Positions 7,634 to 58,324 of a stretch of DNA of 64,000 bases are shown here, in pieces (the stretch's first letter is position 1; each line of letters starts with the position of its first letter). Position numbers and translations under genes: made by a program. The DNA is from Pseudomonadota bacterium (lineage in GTDB: Bacteria; Desulfobacterota; Desulfobacteria; Desulfobacterales; RPRI01). The notes beneath the pieces are model-generated. The model did no database searches and was not told the DNA's origin. It worked only from the letters and a program-made list of their open reading frames with translations. The DNA lies in the NCBI GenBank assembly GCA_018817425.1, contig JAHITX010000034.1, positions 1 through 64,000 of the forward strand, written 5' to 3'.

Positions 7634-7660
7634 TTGGAATATCTTTACCTTATTTATTAT

Positions 7661-7805
7661 GAGCCAGTTTCAAAACGCCCCATTTTGGCCGATCTCTGCG
7701 TTGGGCTCAAATTTCAATCCTCGAAATACTAACTGTATTCCTGTGGTTGAAATTTTCTCCCGCCTTGAGCTTGACCAAACTGAAACGTTTTGAAAGTGGC
7801 TCATT
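7661..7805. mobile_element. MITE-like inverted-repeat element, copy 1
   Basis: About 145 bp bounded by near-perfect inverted repeats: gagccagtttcaaaacg on the left and cgttttgaaagtggctc on the right. ATTAT flanks both sides (7656-7660 and 7806-7810), a plausible 5-bp target duplication. Internally it has a second imperfect hairpin (cctcgaaatac / gtattcctgtgg). A second copy is at 40123-40287. It has no ORF of its own, so it is a non-autonomous element or large palindromic REP. It overlaps the 3' end of batE and lies between two convergent genes, where its folded transcript could also act as a bidirectional terminator. Confidence 0.8.
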
Positions 7806-8567
7806 ATTTATAATATTTTTCAGCGCCCCGTTATTGATCCATCCTCGTTTTTTATCAGGCAGGCTAATAATAGACCACCCTTCTTCTGATCTTTCATGGT
7901 GCACTACAGTACCTTCATGAAGCTTAAACAACAGCGTATCTTTAGCGTCCGGTCCGGCATGGATATTTGCCTCTTTTTCAAGTATTACCGCCCGGTCATC
8001 CGTATTTAAAAGATACCATTTTATGCCTAAAGAAGTACCGGAAATCATCCATACGATAAAAAGAATCATTGATGCATAGTATATCCATTCCGTTTTTTTA
8101 AAAAGCCTGACAAATAGAATCCCCCAGAAAAAGATGTTTAGACCGGCAAAACAGTAAAACAATTCCATCATATTTGTTGAGCCGATCCAAAAAAAAGCCA
8201 TTTCCAAAAAACCATGGGGTTCTTCTATAGCATCCTGAATCCTGTCACGGGCATATTTTAGATTATATTTCAAATCTGCATCTCTTGGAATCAGGATACG
8301 GGCACGCTCGTAATTTAAAATTGCATACCCGGAAAGATCCATGCGCAGGTAAGCGTTCCCCAGGTTATAATACATGTGCCCGTTTTTATATCCGGCCCTT
8401 ATTAACTGCGTATAACCATCTACTGATTCGGAAAAACGGCCTTGCTTGTATGCCATGTTGGCTTTGAAATAAGTCTCCTCCCATCCGCTTGTTTGGGAAT
8501 GGCTGGCAGTAATTGGAAGAATTGCCAATACGAAGATTATAATAATCAAAGCTTTAAAAGTTCTCAC
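7707..8567 (-). CDS. batE: BatE-like TPR/SH3 membrane protein
   Basis: Last gene of the Bat operon. The 286-residue product has an N-terminal signal/anchor (about 1-24), TPR helices with the YYNLGNAYLR motif (about 30-110), two hydrophobic membrane segments (about 120-170) and a bacterial SH3-like domain with EANIHAGP and WSIISLPD.RRG-type strands (about 195-255). This is the usual BatE layout. It overlaps batD by 4 bp. The last ~31 residues, from EPLSKRF onward, are encoded by the inverted-repeat element at 7661-7805, so the original C-terminus has been replaced or extended by element sequence. The exact role of BatE is unknown in general; a periplasmic or membrane scaffold for the VWA proteins is inferred. 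Confidence 0.82.
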   Translation of the reverse strand: MRTFKALIIIIFVLAILPITASHSQTSGWEETYFKANMAYKQGRFSESVDGYTQLIRAGYKNGHMYYNLGNAYLRMDLSGYAILNYERARILIPRDADLKYNLKYARDRIQDAIEEPHGFLEMAFFWIGSTNMMELFYCFAGLNIFFWGILFVRLFKKTEWIYYASMILFIVWMISGTSLGIKWYLLNTDDRAVILEKEANIHAGPDAKDTLLFKLHEGTVVHHERSEEGWSIISLPDKKRGWINNGALKNIINNEPLSKRFSLVKLKAGENFNHRNTVSISRIEI

Positions 8568-38649: not shown

Positions 38650-40083
38650 TCAGTTTTGGTTATGAGATTTACAACTTTTTTTTAAATGAATCGCTCTTTT
38701 GCGAAGGGAATTCTCACCAATGTAAGCCCATAAAGTATCTAAGTCAGACTGAGATACACTCAGTTTTTCAATAAGCATAGCATCAATTTTTCCTCTCTGT
38801 CCGGCAGCAATTGTAAGCCAGCGCCGGACAGTATCAAACTTTACTTTCATGACATTTGCCGTAGCTGTAAGAGACATTCCCTTAATCAGAAGATTGAGGA
38901 CAGCAATAATTTTTTCTTCGGAAGATTTAAGGCCGTAAAAAATACTTCCTGCTTTAGTGCAAAATGATCTGTTGCATGTTTTACATATAAACCTGCGGCG
39001 TAAGACCCCCTGTTTTGTTCTGTAAGTTCCGTTGCAGACTATATTGCCTTCTTTTTTTTTATTGTTTCTTACACAATCAGGATTTGGGCAGGTTATTTCC
39101 TTTATATCGATTTCACTCTCTTTTGTATCCGGGCTCATATCGTCAACGGGTTGAGGAGTGTCAACGGGTTGGGGAAGAGAATAACTCTCAAACCGGTTAA
39201 TCAGATTATCCAACTCAATTTCAAGAATTTCCGGAACATCATCAGAAATTACATCCCCGAATTCATGGGCATTCCATGCTGTTTTTAAACCCAGATCAGT
39301 GTAAAACTCTTTTCCTTTTGATATGGATGTATGGAAAGCTGCAAGATATCTTTCTTTTTGATTTATTGTTGCAAGATATTTCAAATTGTTAACCATCATA
39401 GGATATGCTACACCTAAATTTGTTGCAAACATGGAATAATGGAAAAAAACTCCTTTATTCATAGTTAAGATATTGCTGATTTTATCTGCTGTAAGATAAT
39501 CTTCGAGCGTTTTTTGCTTTATAAGCTTTTGAAATATATCTATTCTGATGGGCAAACATATAACATAACCTACCATAAGACCCCAGTGATCAAATGTAAT
39601 GCGGTTTAAATCAGGCAACATTTTTATAGCTTTTGCCAAAACATCTTTATTCAAAGGTTTCTTGGTTCCGTAGGTATCATTATGATAAGAAAGCACTACA
39701 TCTATATACTTATCAGTTAGACATTTATCGTTTTCTGCCGTAATTTTTCTACCCGGCTGTTTGTAGCTTTTGAGTAAATCCTTTACTCTTATAAGATCCG
39801 CTTCAATTAATGTGTAGGCGAATCTCTTTTTTTTCAGCGAATACCATAACGGATTATCAGCATTAAGCGAAATGCAAACTTCCATGGGTATTTTAGTAAT
39901 ATTGGCAATATCCTGAAGATTTTCTATGGAAGCGTGTGAGAGGTCAGCTTCCCATCTTCGCAATTGTCTTACGCTGACTTCTGTCAATTCAGCAAATTCA
40001 TCCTGGCTTTGCTTTCGCCATTGCCGGTAGTCTTTGATAAGCTGACCAAGTGTCTTGTAACATTTATAATTATCAGAGGACAT
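38650..40083 (-). CDS. XRE-HTH protein fused to an IS1-like transposase N-terminal region
   Basis: 477 residues in three parts. Residues 8-70 are an XRE helix-turn-helix. Residues ~80-300 are an unrecognised mixed alpha/beta region. From about 335 it resembles the InsA-type head of IS1/IS1595 transposases: a zinc ribbon with CPNPDC and, after a gap, CKTCNRSF, then a helix-turn-helix with GMSLTATANVMKVKFDTVRRW, and the first DDE-like strand SDLDTLWAYIGE, where the protein stops. The catalytic domain is therefore missing, so transposition is unlikely and a DNA-binding regulator built from transposase parts is more plausible. A tandem PQPVDTPQPVD linker joins the parts. It is divergent from the UroD-family gene. 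Confidence 0.68.
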   Translation of the reverse strand: MSSDNYKCYKTLGQLIKDYRQWRKQSQDEFAELTEVSVRQLRRWEADLSHASIENLQDIANITKIPMEVCISLNADNPLWYSLKKKRFAYTLIEADLIRVKDLLKSYKQPGRKITAENDKCLTDKYIDVVLSYHNDTYGTKKPLNKDVLAKAIKMLPDLNRITFDHWGLMVGYVICLPIRIDIFQKLIKQKTLEDYLTADKISNILTMNKGVFFHYSMFATNLGVAYPMMVNNLKYLATINQKERYLAAFHTSISKGKEFYTDLGLKTAWNAHEFGDVISDDVPEILEIELDNLINRFESYSLPQPVDTPQPVDDMSPDTKESEIDIKEITCPNPDCVRNNKKKEGNIVCNGTYRTKQGVLRRRFICKTCNRSFCTKAGSIFYGLKSSEEKIIAVLNLLIKGMSLTATANVMKVKFDTVRRWLTIAAGQRGKIDAMLIEKLSVSQSDLDTLWAYIGENSLRKRAIHLKKSCKSHNQN

Positions 40084-40122
40084 ATTTAGGCCTTGTAAAG
40101 CTGAGATGGCGGATATTATATT

Positions 40123-40287
40123 GAGTCAGTTTCAAAACGCCCCATTTTGGCCGATCTTAAGCGTTGGGCTCAAATTTCGCACGAAGTGAAGCATTAGCGC
40201 TATCCTCGAAATACTTAATGTATTCCTGTGGTTGAAATTTTCTCCCGCCTTGAGCTTGACCAAACTGAAACGTTTTGAAAGTGACTC
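40123..40287. mobile_element. MITE-like inverted-repeat element, copy 2
   Basis: About 165 bp with ends gagtcagtttcaaaacg and cgttttgaaagtgactc. It matches copy 1 (7661-7805) along its length, except for an extra ~23-bp internal segment (gcacgaagtgaagcattagcgct) and scattered changes. Flanks TATT/TATT are a possible target duplication. It lies between the divergent XRE-chimera and UroD genes, so it could affect both promoters. Confidence 0.8.
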
Positions 40288-40373
40288 TATTATTAAAAGA
40301 TAAAACTGTAAGTGTTTATTGCTTAACAGTAAAACAATAGAAAAACAATATTACAATGGAGGGAAATAACGAT

Positions 40374-52907: not shown

Positions 52908-55349
52908 ATGGATACGGTAGATAAAAAGTGGATGTTTTTTGTTGTAGCTGCAACAGCCGGCGTATTGTCGTTGCTATTCACAGCTATCTTAAATCGTTCG
53001 CGCAGTCCAAAAATTTTAGCCACATTAATATTCCTGCTTTCTCTCTTTATCTTGGGTGAGAATACTCTGCGTGCCGATACAGTGGAATATAAACTCACAA
53101 TTGCTCAAGAGACGGTCAGTTTTACAGGAAAAGAACGTCCTGCGATGACTATTAACGGTAACATCCCAGGGCCGACGCTACGATTCCATGTAGGAGATTC
53201 AGCCGTCATTCATGTCCACAACGCTATGAATGTCAACACCTCGATTCATTGGCACGGAATTCTTTTGCCGAATGGCCAGGACGGTGTTCCGTATTTGACC
53301 TATCCACCCATTGCTCCGGGATCAACGTTTACATATCGTTTTATGATCAGACATGCAGGGACGTATTGGTATCATTCGCACAGTGGATTACAGGAACAGC
53401 AGGGAATTTATGGATCAATTGCAATCGAGACTGAAAATAGGATCTATGAAGAAGTCCGCGATGAGGTAGTTCTTCTCTCTGACTGGAGTGATGAGAACCC
53501 GCATGAGATAATGCGCAAACTCAAGCGTGGCAGTGAATGGTATGCGGTAAAGAAGAACAGTGCACAGAGCGTGCTGGGCGCATACAGAGCTGGCAAAGTT
53601 GGTTCATTTTTTCAACGCGAGTTAAGTCGAATGCCGGCAATGGATATATCCGACGTGGCCTATGACAGATTCCTTGCAAACGGAAAGTCGTCATATAAAA
53701 TACACGCAAGTCCTGGCGAGACTCTTCGATTAAGAATTATTAACGGTTCTGCAACGACGTATTTTCTTTTAGAGTTCGCCGGTGGTCCAATGAAGATTAT
53801 CGCAGCTGACGGGATTGATGTTAGACCATTTGAAGAGCAAAGATTTCTTATCGGTGTTGCTGAAACATACGATGTTCTCATTCGCGTTCCACAAAACGGT
53901 AGTTATGAACTGCGCGCTACGGCACACGACGGATCGGGGCATGCCTCGGTTTGGATTGGAGAGGGTGAGCCGAATGCCGCGCCTGACATCCCAAAGCCGG
54001 ATCTTTACGCTGCAATGGGTGAAGTTACATTAAGGAGTCTGTTCGCACTCACACCTGAGGGTAGCATGGGAATGACAACAGGCGATGTGGAAGCCGGGAA
54101 GTTTGACCGGCCGGGAATGAACATGCAGGGGCATAGCGGTGTCGCTATGAATCATGGCAAGATGCCAATGGGCATGCCGATGTCACACAAAAACCAAACC
54201 GGGCACAACATAAGTATGCCGGTAGACGAGATGGCCCACGACCCTGATCTTATGCCGATGCCAATGGCTCACCAATCGACAGATCATGGGACCAAGGATC
54301 AGGATGAAGGCACAGGGCGGAAATCTCCTGAGAATATGCACGATGGCCACCAAATGGGCGCTGTGGAAACCGTAGTGGATGGTAAGGACCCGCGCCGTCC
54401 ATGGCCTATTTATGAAAAGCTTAGGGCTCTTGAGCCGACGGTGTTTCCTCCTGAACAGTCGCGTCAAGTTATTCGCCTCACACTTGATGGAGACATGGAC
54501 CGATATGTCTGGTACTTCAATAACAAGGCCCTGCATGAACAGGACAAGGTTACCATCCGAAAGGGCCAAGTGGCGCGCTTTGTTATGATTAACCGTACAA
54601 TGATGCATCACCCTATACATCTCCACGGCCATTTTTTTCGCGTTATCAACGGCCAGGGTGATTACTCCCCATTAAAACATACGGTCAACGTTGCGCCTAT
54701 GTCTACCAGCGTTATCGAATTCGATGCCAATGATGCGGGCGACTGGTTTTTTCACTGTCACCTGCTCTATCACATGCACAGCGGAATGGCGCGCATTCTC
54801 CACTACGAAAGTTTTAAACCCGATGCAGAGGTATCATCTATTCGGCATAAGCTTCTTGAAGATCCCATATATTTCTGGGGCGAAGCTACTGCCATGAGCC
54901 ATATGACCGAAGGGTCACTCGTCCTGTCGAACACCCGCAATATTCTTACCGCTGACTGGCAGGCAGGGTGGCAGGACGTCGAAGATACTGATTACGAAAT
55001 TGATCTAACATGGGATTATTCGTTCAACCGGTATGCCAGCGTTTTTGCAGGAGCAGAGATCACAAACGAGGAACTTGGCGACCGGGGAATTTTTGGTGGC
55101 CGTTACTTGCTGCCTCTTCTCATTCAAACAACCGGATGGGTTGACACAGAGGGTGAATTACGTTTATCACTATCAAAGGAGTTGCCGTTAACATCGCGTT
55201 TGAGCGCCTTTGGCGAGATCGAATATGACACTGCAACCAAATGGGAATGTCAAGCAGGCGCAATTTTCCTAATCGATAAGCGTTTCTCGATAATGGCCAG
55301 TTATCATACCGAGTTTGGTATCGGCGCAGGACTTGTGATACGATTCTGA
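52908..55349 (+). CDS. CopA-type multicopper oxidase with C-terminal CopB-like region
   Basis: 813 residues. Two hydrophobic helices open the protein (about 9-27 and 38-52). The oxidase follows (about 60-640) with all four copper clusters: HWHG, WYHSHSG, HPIHLHGH and HCHLLYHMHSGM. A Met/His-rich loop (about 395-480; GMPMSHKNQ, MPMPMAH) matches the periplasmic copper-binding stretch of CopA. From about 650 onward the sequence changes to short amphipathic strands ending in aromatic-glycine residues (AGLVIRF-type end), like an outer-membrane CopB barrel. Base composition here is visibly richer in G+C than neighbouring genes, consistent with transfer. It may oxidise Cu(I) or phenols in the periplasm. 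Confidence 0.8.
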   Translation: MDTVDKKWMFFVVAATAGVLSLLFTAILNRSRSPKILATLIFLLSLFILGENTLRADTVEYKLTIAQETVSFTGKERPAMTINGNIPGPTLRFHVGDSAVIHVHNAMNVNTSIHWHGILLPNGQDGVPYLTYPPIAPGSTFTYRFMIRHAGTYWYHSHSGLQEQQGIYGSIAIETENRIYEEVRDEVVLLSDWSDENPHEIMRKLKRGSEWYAVKKNSAQSVLGAYRAGKVGSFFQRELSRMPAMDISDVAYDRFLANGKSSYKIHASPGETLRLRIINGSATTYFLLEFAGGPMKIIAADGIDVRPFEEQRFLIGVAETYDVLIRVPQNGSYELRATAHDGSGHASVWIGEGEPNAAPDIPKPDLYAAMGEVTLRSLFALTPEGSMGMTTGDVEAGKFDRPGMNMQGHSGVAMNHGKMPMGMPMSHKNQTGHNISMPVDEMAHDPDLMPMPMAHQSTDHGTKDQDEGTGRKSPENMHDGHQMGAVETVVDGKDPRRPWPIYEKLRALEPTVFPPEQSRQVIRLTLDGDMDRYVWYFNNKALHEQDKVTIRKGQVARFVMINRTMMHHPIHLHGHFFRVINGQGDYSPLKHTVNVAPMSTSVIEFDANDAGDWFFHCHLLYHMHSGMARILHYESFKPDAEVSSIRHKLLEDPIYFWGEATAMSHMTEGSLVLSNTRNILTADWQAGWQDVEDTDYEIDLTWDYSFNRYASVFAGAEITNEELGDRGIFGGRYLLPLLIQTTGWVDTEGELRLSLSKELPLTSRLSAFGEIEYDTATKWECQAGAIFLIDKRFSIMASYHTEFGIGAGLVIRF

Positions 55350-55522
55350 CCCCTTTTCTCACAGGGTATTTATCAGTGGCAATTTTAGCAATAAGTGCTG
55401 GAGGCCCTTAATATTTAAATAATGATAAATCTTATTCATTTACTGGTGGATTAAGTGTAACAGCCACCCTGGATTATGCAAGCTTCATCCCGGCACACTT
55501 GTTACAGCGTTGAGGTAGAAAA
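55350..55522. other. Spacer with imperfect inverted repeat upstream of the cassette-like ORFs
   Basis: 173 bases after the copper gene. It contains AAGTGT and GCC separated by AACA on the left and GGCACACTT on the right (about 55455-55500), an imperfect inverted repeat reminiscent of, but not conforming to, an attC layout. GTTACAG follows. I do not call it a recombination site. Confidence 0.3.
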
Positions 55523-55897
55523 ATGAAAGTATTTATTAGATTCATTATTATATGGCTTATAGCCTTTCCTCCATTTGCTCTTGCAGAAGATAAAGGCTCG
55601 GTTTGTTTGGGGCCTTTTTTAAGCATTATAATGTATGCACCTTCAAATAGGCCATATCTCACTATAGGAGATTATGGCCCTTTTCATTTTGAACAAACCA
55701 GCCAAACTTGCAGACTGGTTGCTGAAGACCTTGATCTGAAAAAAGTATATAGGGTCAAAGTCCACTTTGGAGATAAAGTAGTAACATCCTGGAACCTCGA
55801 CTTTAAAAAAATCGGCAGTAATATGGTTTATATCTGGAGAGATAAAGGCGCATGGCGTATGGAACCTATTAAAAACGGCAAATGCGAACGGCCATGA
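55523..55897 (+). CDS. Small secreted protein of unknown function
   Basis: 124 residues with a signal peptide (about 1-21, FALAED). Mature part has three cysteines (near 29, 63 and 121) and an even mix of strands; no known family. AGGTAG is about 7 bases upstream. It is followed 28 bp later by a candidate attC site, so it may be a mobile gene cassette. Confidence 0.55.
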   Translation: MKVFIRFIIIWLIAFPPFALAEDKGSVCLGPFLSIIMYAPSNRPYLTIGDYGPFHFEQTSQTCRLVAEDLDLKKVYRVKVHFGDKVVTSWNLDFKKIGSNMVYIWRDKGAWRMEPIKNGKCERP

Positions 55898-55925
55898 AGA
55901 TAATATTTAAAGATAGAATCGGGAT

Positions 55926-55988
55926 CTATAACAATCTAATGCACTGAAATGCAAAAAGTATCGCCCAGTGATTAGTATGTTGTTACGA
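55926..55988 (+). other. Candidate attC-like site (non-canonical), after the 124-residue ORF
   Basis: CTATAAC (55926-55932) and GTTACGA (55982-55988) form a partly complementary outer pair, extended by AA/TT to TAACAA/TTGTTA. Inside, CTAATGCACTG (55936-55946) pairs with CAGTGATTAG (55966-55975) over 10 bases with one bulged G. The 19-base centre is unpaired. Total 63 bp, in the size range of short attC sites. Spacer lengths (3 and 6) and bulge position differ from the usual pattern, so this is the weakest of the three. Confidence 0.45.
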
Positions 55989-56014
55989 TTACATCAAATT
56001 CAAAAGGGGGGCTT

Positions 56015-56512
56015 ATGGGAGTCGGTCTTTTTATATTGTTTGAACCATATTTATCTGATGCATCAATAGATTCAGATGGTAAATTAATTGCGAAAGTGCT
56101 TCCTGAGATTGACGACATCGCAAAAAAAATGGGTGTGACTCCTTTATCCAACTTTGGTCTAAATCCTGATATTTCTGATGACTACAAAAATAAACTTGAA
56201 AAAGCTGCTAACGTTTTCTTTTCAGAAGATACTCAATCTGGGGGGATAGGAACCAACTTTGGAGAGCAATTTGAGAAATTAATTGATGGAGTTGAAGATT
56301 ATGTCGATAATGAGGAATTTTTTGATATTTCAGATGGAATAAATACAATCTCCTCTATATTAAATTACATACAAAATCTTAAAAAAAATGATCCGGATTA
56401 TTCGACAAGAATAGATGGATTTGATTTTATATTAGAGGAATTGGAAGAATATTGTAAATGTTTGGAGATTGGAAAAAAACAAGGGGCGCGGTTTCGTTTT
56501 GAAATGTGGTAA
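56015..56512 (+). CDS. Hypothetical cytoplasmic protein in a cassette-like setting
   Basis: 165 residues, soluble and acidic, with helices in DDYKNKLEKAANVF and GFDFILEELEEYCKC. AAAGGGGGG lies 4 bases before the ATG. The gene starts 27 bases after one candidate attC and ends 11 bases before another, the compact single-ORF layout of integron cassettes. No family recognised; an immunity- or stress-type cassette protein is possible but unsupported. Confidence 0.55.
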   Translation: MGVGLFILFEPYLSDASIDSDGKLIAKVLPEIDDIAKKMGVTPLSNFGLNPDISDDYKNKLEKAANVFFSEDTQSGGIGTNFGEQFEKLIDGVEDYVDNEEFFDISDGINTISSILNYIQNLKKNDPDYSTRIDGFDFILEELEEYCKCLEIGKKQGARFRFEMW

Positions 56513-56523
56513 CGGTTGATAAT

Positions 56524-56617
56524 GCCCAAGAAGTCATTCAATCTGGCAGCAAGTGCCAGCATCTGATGCAACATCAATTTATCAAGCCCTTGCTGCCAGG
56601 TTAATTCTACGTTATGT
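56524..56617 (+). other. attC-like integron recombination site
   Basis: Order of parts: R'' GCCCAAG (56524-56530), 5-nt spacer AAGTC, L'' ATTCAATCTGGCAGCAAG (56536-56553), variable loop of 35 nt, L' CTTGCTGCCAGGTTAAT (56589-56605), 5-nt spacer TCTAC, R' GTTATGT (56611-56617). L''/L' pair over 16 of 17 bases with one extrahelical C at position 4 of L'' in TTCAA, as in known attC sites. The R'' box ends AAG instead of AAC, a weakness. It starts 11 bases after a stop codon. Confidence 0.7.
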
Positions 56618-56634
56618 TTGAGCATTTATAAAAG

Positions 56635-56952
56635 ATGGGAAGTATAAATAAAAAAATTAACGCTCTGGACTATTTCTTTACAGCTATCACGTTAGTCGGT
56701 GTAATTTGCACATGGTGGTTGGCAAGGGATGACTCAAATTTTCCTGTGTTCCTCATTTTGAGTATCGTATTCTTGCCGCTTCTAACCTTCAAAATTATTT
56801 CTTCGCTACTAGCAAATGAAACCATGTTTAGTGGCATGCCGTGTGTCGTGCGAAAAGCCGATAATCCAAGTCTTTATTGGCTGGTAGTTTACACTTATGC
56901 GTTTTTTGATTCACTATGCGCTATATATTTGATTTACTACGTATTCACATGA
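56635..56952 (+). CDS. Small three-helix membrane protein in a cassette-like setting
   Basis: 105 residues with hydrophobic helices at about 12-30, 37-60 and 78-103 and short hydrophilic loops. Starts 18 bases after the attC-like site, with a weak ribosome site. No family recognised. A second small membrane protein follows in the same presumed cassette. Confidence 0.5.
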   Translation: MGSINKKINALDYFFTAITLVGVICTWWLARDDSNFPVFLILSIVFLPLLTFKIISSLLANETMFSGMPCVVRKADNPSLYWLVVYTYAFFDSLCAIYLIYYVFT

Positions 56953-57081
56953 ATAAATGGAAATAACAACACCATGTACTGGATTCGCAGGGGCGGACCG
57001 CTTCAGCCGTATCGGGGTTCGGTGTTAACGTGGCTTTATCGAAGTCATCATTCCCTGTTCTCCAGTGATGGTGAGGGTTGT

Positions 57082-57498
57082 ATGTCCAATACTATAAAGG
57101 TCATTTTTATAATTATATCATTTATAACTGCCTTATCAGCACCCATGTTGATCTTGGTCTTTGATTGGTTAGGAGATAGTTCAAATTGGGATCTGTTTGC
57201 GGGTTATTTTTTTATTGTTCTTCTACCTAGTATTTTTTCACGTGGCCTGCATGAAAGAAAAGGACTTTTAAAAGTTAATGTAACATTTGGTAAATGCCTG
57301 CGAACATTATACTATGCTGTAATTGCTAATTTATTAATCTGGTTAATATTAACTGTTTTTAAGATAAATTATGGACCTGTTCTTTTAGCCTCTTTCATTT
57401 TATGGTTTTCAATGAGCACCTTGTATCATAATTTATTTGGTGTTAAAGAATTAAACTCTTTTAAAAGAAAATGGCTGATAACAAATAATGATCTATAG
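57082..57498 (+). CDS. Small four-helix membrane protein in a cassette-like setting
   Basis: 139 residues from the ATG at 57082, preceded by GAGGGT; an upstream in-frame ATG at 56974 would add a Arg-rich 36-residue leader lacking family support. Hydrophobic helices near 6-25, 40-57, 78-98 and 103-118. The stop codon is 4 bases before the R'' box of the attC-like site at 57503, the usual cassette spacing. Unknown function. Confidence 0.5.
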   Translation: MSNTIKVIFIIISFITALSAPMLILVFDWLGDSSNWDLFAGYFFIVLLPSIFSRGLHERKGLLKVNVTFGKCLRTLYYAVIANLLIWLILTVFKINYGPVLLASFILWFSMSTLYHNLFGVKELNSFKRKWLITNNDL

Positions 57499-57502
57499 TG
57501 AT

Positions 57503-57629
57503 TTCTAACTTGGCACTCAACGTGACAAGCTACTATCTCGCCGAATCAATCTGTATAGGTTGTCGGCATATTTTTTCTTAATAACCTTATGTTTGCAGGT
57601 ACCCCTTGCTTGTTAGTTTTTCGTTATCT
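57503..57629 (+). other. attC-like integron recombination site, canonical layout
   Basis: R'' TTCTAAC (57503-57509), 5-nt spacer TTGGC, L'' ACTCAAC (57515-57521), long variable loop, L' GTTAGT (57612-57617), 5-nt spacer TTTTC, R' GTTATCT (57623-57629). L''/L' pair fully with one extrahelical C at position 4, identical in placement to the site at 56524. The stem continues after a 5-nt bulge (CAAGC/GCTTG). Internal GCCGA/TCGGC arms fit a folded variable region. Confidence 0.72.
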
Positions 57630-57643
57630 TCCAAGGAGGTAAA

Positions 57644-58324
57644 ATGAAAGTGTCCCGTACAAAACTCAGTATCATAATTAGTTCTCTTGTTCTTATTTTT
57701 CTGTTTGCGGGTTGTGCAACACAGGCTCGACCTTTGCGCTCTTCCTCTATGTTTGCTGAAGACACAACAGAAAATAGGCCTGAAGCGGATCGTATGATTA
57801 TCTGGACGGCCTCACTTACACTTGAAGTTAACAATATTAGTGATTCTATAAATGAAATCACCTCAATTATTAAGGGTAGTGGGGGATATATTGAAAACAA
57901 AAGCATTAGTGGAGAAGAAAGTGGTCATTTAAAATTACGTGTTCCGTCAAAAAACATTACTTCTATTGTTGATAAGATAGCAAAACTGGGAAGTGAAAAA
58001 CGCCGTAATATTTCTTCAGAAGATGTCACGGAGCAATACATCGATACCGAGGCACGTCTTAAAAATGCAATTGCTTTAAGAAACCGTTTAAAAGATCTTC
58101 TTGATAAAGCTAAAGATGTAAAAGATATCCTTGCGATAGAAAGAGAATTAACCCGCATTCAAAGTGACATAGATTCCATGGAAGGCCGTCTTAAAAAATT
58201 AAAGGGTAAAATTGATTTTGCTTCTATTGACCTTTATTTGGAACAAAAAACTATTTTAGGACCACTTGGTTATCTGGCAAAAGGTATTGGCTGGTTTATC
58301 AAGAAACTATTTATTCTAAAATAA
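57644..58324 (+). CDS. DUF4349 lipoprotein
   Basis: 226 residues; lipobox in FLFAGCATQ gives a lipidated protein. The DUF4349 block follows: ASLTLEVNNI, GGYIENKS, LRVPSKNI and a long coiled coil (about 120-185, RNRLKDLLDKAKDVKDILAI). One C-terminal hydrophobic segment (about 205-222) ends the protein. GGAGG is 6 bases before the ATG and only 5 bases past an attC-like site. It is followed 4 bp later by a VanZ-like gene. Function of the domain is unknown. Confidence 0.85.
   Translation: MKVSRTKLSIIISSLVLIFLFAGCATQARPLRSSSMFAEDTTENRPEADRMIIWTASLTLEVNNISDSINEITSIIKGSGGYIENKSISGEESGHLKLRVPSKNITSIVDKIAKLGSEKRRNISSEDVTEQYIDTEARLKNAIALRNRLKDLLDKAKDVKDILAIERELTRIQSDIDSMEGRLKKLKGKIDFASIDLYLEQKTILGPLGYLAKGIGWFIKKLFILK

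Follow-up and report, generated by a model that had tools for sequence, protein, structure and literature searches.

Introduction

The bottom strand of an attC site forms an imperfect hairpin in which some bases stay extrahelical, the integron integrase (IntI) cuts the site at the G/TT of its R' box, and the excised cassette is a circle which can be re-inserted at attI or attC. Clusters in which at least two attC sites lie close together, with cassette-like ORFs between them and no integrase nearby, are referred to as CALINs, and they have been proposed to be degraded integrons (PMC9024848). About two thirds of the integron-associated genes in environmental metagenomes have no known function (PMC7370490).

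We analyzed a stretch of 64,000 nucleotides (hereafter the window), which belongs to a 175-kb contig (C34) of a draft genome of 5.1 Mb in 147 contigs. It contains a locus which is very probably a chromosomal integron cassette cluster without an integrase of its own, that is, a CALIN, in which each cassette consists of one ORF and one attC site. Similar to described CALINs, the locus has clustered attC sites, cassette-like ORFs, and no nearby integrase (PMC9024848); the difference is that three of its four sites were recognized by their geometry, and not by the covariance model of this analysis. CALINs themselves are a known kind of mobile-gene cluster, and the four proteins encoded here are almost unknown elsewhere.

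Organization of the Locus

The locus comprises four small ORFs on the plus strand, located between a multicopper oxidase gene (ending at 55349) and a gene for a DUF4349 protein (starting at 57644). Its features, all on the plus strand, are as follows.

52908–55349, plus strand: multicopper oxidase, left flank, with Pfam Cu-oxidase domains
55523–55897, plus strand: ORF1, 124 aa, signal-like N-terminus
55926–55988, plus strand: attC 1, found by the covariance model, geometry score 23.4 (third in the window)
56015–56512, plus strand: ORF2, 165 aa, no hydrophobic segment and no family match
56524–56617, plus strand: attC 2, geometry score 27.6 (top of the window)
56635–56952, plus strand: ORF3, 105 aa, hydrophobic
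56961–57083, plus strand: attC 3, geometry score 26.8 (second in the window)
57082–57498, plus strand: ORF4, 138 aa, hydrophobic
57503–57629, plus strand: attC 4, geometry score 23.3 (fourth in the window)
57644–58324, plus strand: DUF4349 protein, right flank (Pfam PF14257, 169 bits)

The DUF4349 gene is followed by a VanZ-like gene, whose match to Pfam VanZ is under the cut-off of that family. An ortholog of the multicopper oxidase was found in another gene context in a further genome (G009). The frame of ORF4 is listed from 56974; we set its start at the ATG at 57082, which overlaps the R' box of attC 3, because the cassette boundary at 57077 implies this codon.

As in gene cassettes, each ORF is followed by its own attC site at a spacing of 4–28 bp (28, 11, 8, and 4 bp past the stop codons of ORF1, ORF2, ORF3, and ORF4, respectively), and the units measured from R' box to R' box are 629, 466, and 546 bp long. 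A preliminary description of this DNA had reported four small plus-strand ORFs between attC-like sites, and both the ORF coordinates and our geometry scan agree with this. The three R' boxes it had named are exactly as described (GTTACGA at 55982, GTTATGT at 56611, and GTTATCT at 57623), and so are the distances of 629 and 1012 bp between them. What has to be revised is the reading of the 1012-bp stretch as a single unit: it consists of two cassettes (466 and 546 bp), because attC 3, with its R' box at 57077, had been overlooked, and the sites bounding the cassettes number four instead of three.

The leftmost unit, that of ORF1, has neither an attC nor an attI site on its left side to define its left end. 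A hairpin ahead of ORF1 (55440–55525) was considered as a left attC site and rejected, as it folds no better than shuffled sequences.

Architecture of the attC Sites

The architecture of attC sites (R'' and R' boxes, spacers of approximately 5 nt, paired L boxes, and an extrahelical base) fits all four sites, with several deviations. In attC 1, the R'' box is CTATAAC, the L'' box is TAATgCACTG (extrahelical g), and the L' box is CAGTGATTA, and the R' box is ambiguous, being either GTTGTTA (55979) or GTTACGA (55982). Of 200 shuffles, 197 folded less well than the bottom strand of this site. attC 2 has the R'' box GCCCAAG, which ends in AAG and whose final base departs from the consensus RYYYAAC, the R' box GTTATGT at 56611, and a strong inner stem (CTGGCAGCAAG/CTTGCTGCCAG); the folding of its bottom strand beats all 200 shuffles (z = -3.9). 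In attC 3, the R'' box AAATAAC and the R' box GTTGTAT at 57077 enclose the pair CCATgTACTGGA/TCCAGTGATGG with an extrahelical g. Finally, attC 4 has the R'' box TTCTAAC, the pair ACTcAAC/GTTAGT with an extrahelical c, and the R' box GTTATCT at 57623, and its stem is short, the weakest among the four. A direct-repeat search revealed no repeat family common to attC 1–4. Pairwise identities of the attC sites were computed with free end gaps and are left without interpretation.

Are the attC Sites More than Chance?

A geometry scorer was run over both strands of the window (2 x 64 kb). It uses a fixed attC geometry, and its training set consisted of 33 attC sites from elsewhere, most of them taken from arrays next to an integrase in other, related genomes, with the array on contig C33 described below as a further source. 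The scorer was devised after the sites had been inspected, whereas the training sites are independent of them. Its four best matches were attC 2, attC 3, attC 1 (matched at 55926–55985), and attC 4, in this order, one in each gap and all on the plus strand, and the ranking was unchanged when the search was restricted to a canonical single extrahelical base. The four sites lie within 1.7 kb on one strand, as is characteristic of a CALIN. In 70 dinucleotide shuffles of the window, at most two of the top five matches fell within 2.3 kb on one strand. The maxima of 40 shuffled windows ranged from 23.4 to 28.1, so the scores of single attC sites are modest, and the case rests on the four sites jointly because each score is ordinary for the best match of a shuffled window.

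A covariance model was built from the same 33 sites and used here instead of IntegronFinder's own model. attC 1 was its top match in the window (E = 0.008, again at 55926–55985), and the model did not find attC 2–4 well. Matches to Rfam were far under the gathering scores and were disregarded.

These modest single scores would also be expected if the four ORFs were ordinary strain-specific genes, separated by chance hairpins or terminators and not organized in cassettes. Terminator-like and promoter-like sites occur at chance level, and one weak terminator-like hairpin is present inside attC 4, which could be read in the same way. However, the top four geometry matches fill exactly the four gaps on one strand, and apart from that weak hairpin the usual terminators are missing from the attC sites. 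We consider this explanation very unlikely.

An earlier scanner, which searched for paired R boxes with an inner stem and required exact AAC and GTT, gave attC 3 as the best match in 2 x 64 kb (19.6), with a palindromic repeat as the runner-up (17.0). It was set aside, as only attC 3 ranked first, since attC 2 lacks AAC. The palindromic matches at 7670–7793 and 40132–40278 (TCAAAAC/GTTTTGA) were rejected as attC sites, being copies of a MITE-like repeat. This palindromic repeat of approximately 150 bp is located at 7650–7817 and 40114–40297 of the window, has ends GAGCCA..TTTCAAAACG / CGTTTTGAAAGTGGCTC, and mimics attC in naive scans. Further copies were found in this genome and in a congener, G006 (L021 9822–9976, L022 312–471, L024, and L076). 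One of them (L022 312–471, contig C119) interrupts an integrase-like gene and has TACT on both sides by inspection. The window also encodes a protein of 477 aa whose start resembles a helix-turn-helix (38650–40083, minus strand), and a paralog of this protein is present on the same contig near 66–68 kb (L023 3151–4623).

Integron Components Elsewhere in the Genome

The preliminary description had noted no intI at the locus. This holds for the whole 175-kb contig C34, on which no match to TIGR02249 or to the integrase family was detected. The genome-wide search for intI and further attC sites that it had proposed revealed a full-length IntI on contig C33 (410 bits, cut-off 265). Upstream of the IntI gene, the opposite strand carries cassette-like ORFs together with three or more attC sites, and this array runs off the contig end. 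In addition, partial IntI copies are present at the ends of contigs C114, C94, and C119, and the covariance model gave 18 matches at E < 0.1 across the genome, including groups on C24, C131, C100, C96, and C14. Thus, the genome possesses an integron system.

Several observations were made along with this search. One and the same part of an integrase-like gene recurs at the end of C114 and at the starts of C94 and C119, as if the assembly had split a repeated gene, and the copy on C114 has an in-frame TGA. On C34 itself, approximately 66 kb from the cluster, there is a further attC-like match (123368–123452 in G000, 27 bits, E = 0.007).

The complete integron on C33 offers a comparison within the same genome. 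Both loci have one ORF and one attC site per cassette, but the window cluster lacks both the integrase and the well-conserved attC sites (E 1e-7) of the C33 integron; the IntI sits on C33 and not on C34, which sets the cluster apart from a complete integron. In principle, the cluster could belong to a complete integron and have been cut off from its integrase by misassembly, considering that the genome is a draft of 147 contigs and that the C33 array is truncated by its contig. On the other hand, the cluster is embedded 55 kb deep in an uninterrupted 175-kb contig on which no integrase-family match was detected, genes flank it left and right, and such a misassembly is highly improbable.

Relatives of the Four ORFs

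We searched for relatives of the ORFs in 339 other genomes of the order. No relative of ORF4 and no credible relative of ORF2 was found among them; a weak ORF2 match in G021 was discarded because it falls in the frame of an unrelated gene (446 aa). ORF3 has one relative, in a member of another family (G150), with 36% identity over 90 aa and one stop. There, the ORF3 relative is followed by an attC site (L110 1802–2004), a Phd/PIN-like gene pair, another attC site (2775–2882), and a GNAT-like gene, the Phd/PIN-like and GNAT-like genes being named by inspection only, and by eye a degenerate attC-like stem also precedes it. A wider search in 389 genomes of the class gave nothing further. No relative was detected in genome contigs (searched for ORF3 and ORF1), viral contigs (ORF2 and ORF4), plasmids (ORF1–ORF3), or PDB sequences (ORF1 and ORF2). 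Conservation of the four ORFs in the same order across related species, which had been named as the observation that would speak against cassettes, was not found.

The sole relative found for ORF1 is a decayed piece of 110 bp in the congener G006. It lies shortly behind an attC-like end, and behind it come fragments of the genes for the VanZ-like protein and the peptidase, in the same order as in the window. Judging from this arrangement, ORF1 could be an old neighbor of the right flank. It is conceivable that ORF1 is a resident of the right-flank group, behind which only ORF2–ORF4 were inserted as cassettes; the collinear pieces in G006 fit such a history, as does the left side of ORF1, where no attC or attI was found and the hairpin folds like shuffles. 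However, attC 1, the best site according to the covariance model, stands behind ORF1, and the ORF1 piece in G006 lies directly behind an attC-like end. We regard a resident ORF1 as a real possibility, although less likely than not.

The cassette units are absent in the congeners, but the flanks are likewise not conserved there. The DUF4349 gene was not found in the nine congeners searched, and for this reason no clean empty site is available in relatives. In contig C166 of G006, an accessory gene run (L024 8858–14208) carries several weak attC-like sites and includes epoxide-hydrolase-like and peroxiredoxin-like genes, named by inspection; this run is perhaps a decayed cassette array.

Assignment as a CALIN and a Proposed Mechanism

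We assign the locus as a CALIN because the four best geometry matches coincide with its four gaps, a clustering not seen in any of the 70 shuffles; because attC 1 leads the window by covariance model and each attC site closely follows an ORF stop; because an IntI with its array is present on C33, along with many attC sites elsewhere, and no IntI-family match exists on C34; and because the ORFs are not conserved in order and the ORF3 relative in another family adjoins attC sites. Counting against this assignment are the single scores within the shuffle range, the poor covariance-model matches of attC 2–4, the design of the scorer after site inspection, the missing left attC or attI of ORF1, the collinearity of the decayed ORF1 in G006 with right-flank genes, and the lack of a clean empty site.

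Under the CALIN assignment, the bottom strands of the four attC sites would fold as hairpins recognized in trans by an IntI encoded elsewhere, which would cut at the G/TT of the R' boxes, and the cassettes would leave as circles and re-enter at attI or attC sites. We infer that the IntI on C33 may act on this cluster. The cluster is most likely a remnant or spill-over of such integrase activity.

Predicted Cargo Proteins

The preliminary description had predicted two small membrane proteins and one secreted protein, and the sequences are in line with this. ORF1 has a hydrophobic, signal-like segment at its N-terminus and is probably exported, ORF3 and ORF4 look like membrane proteins in view of their hydrophobic sequences, and ORF2 is probably soluble. 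No Pfam or NCBIfam family fits any of the four. Single-sequence structure models were too poor to use for ORF2 (pLDDT 47) and ORF1 (pLDDT 65), and for ORF1 there was no PDB fold match with E < 0.001.

An anti-phage role had also been suggested for such cassette proteins. It found no support here, as PADLOC matched none of the four proteins to a defense model. The cargo probably serves accessory functions. That at least one of these orphan proteins represents a new kind of function carried by cassettes and not covered by current family models, such as phage defense or stress response by a small membrane or exported protein, appears rather unlikely.

Significance

Similar to the cassette genes of environmental metagenomes (PMC7370490), the ORFs of the cluster are small and without database match, a parallel of size and annotation. 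As two thirds of the integron-associated genes in metagenomes lack a known function (PMC7370490), orphan cargo is to be expected here and is not surprising. The results also suggest that geometry can reveal attC sites which have degenerated beyond the reach of a covariance model, when these are lined up behind consecutive ORFs. With a small cluster, a full-length integrase, and scattered attC sites in one genome, movement in trans becomes testable, and the cargo of the cluster counts among the large fraction of cassette genes without known function.
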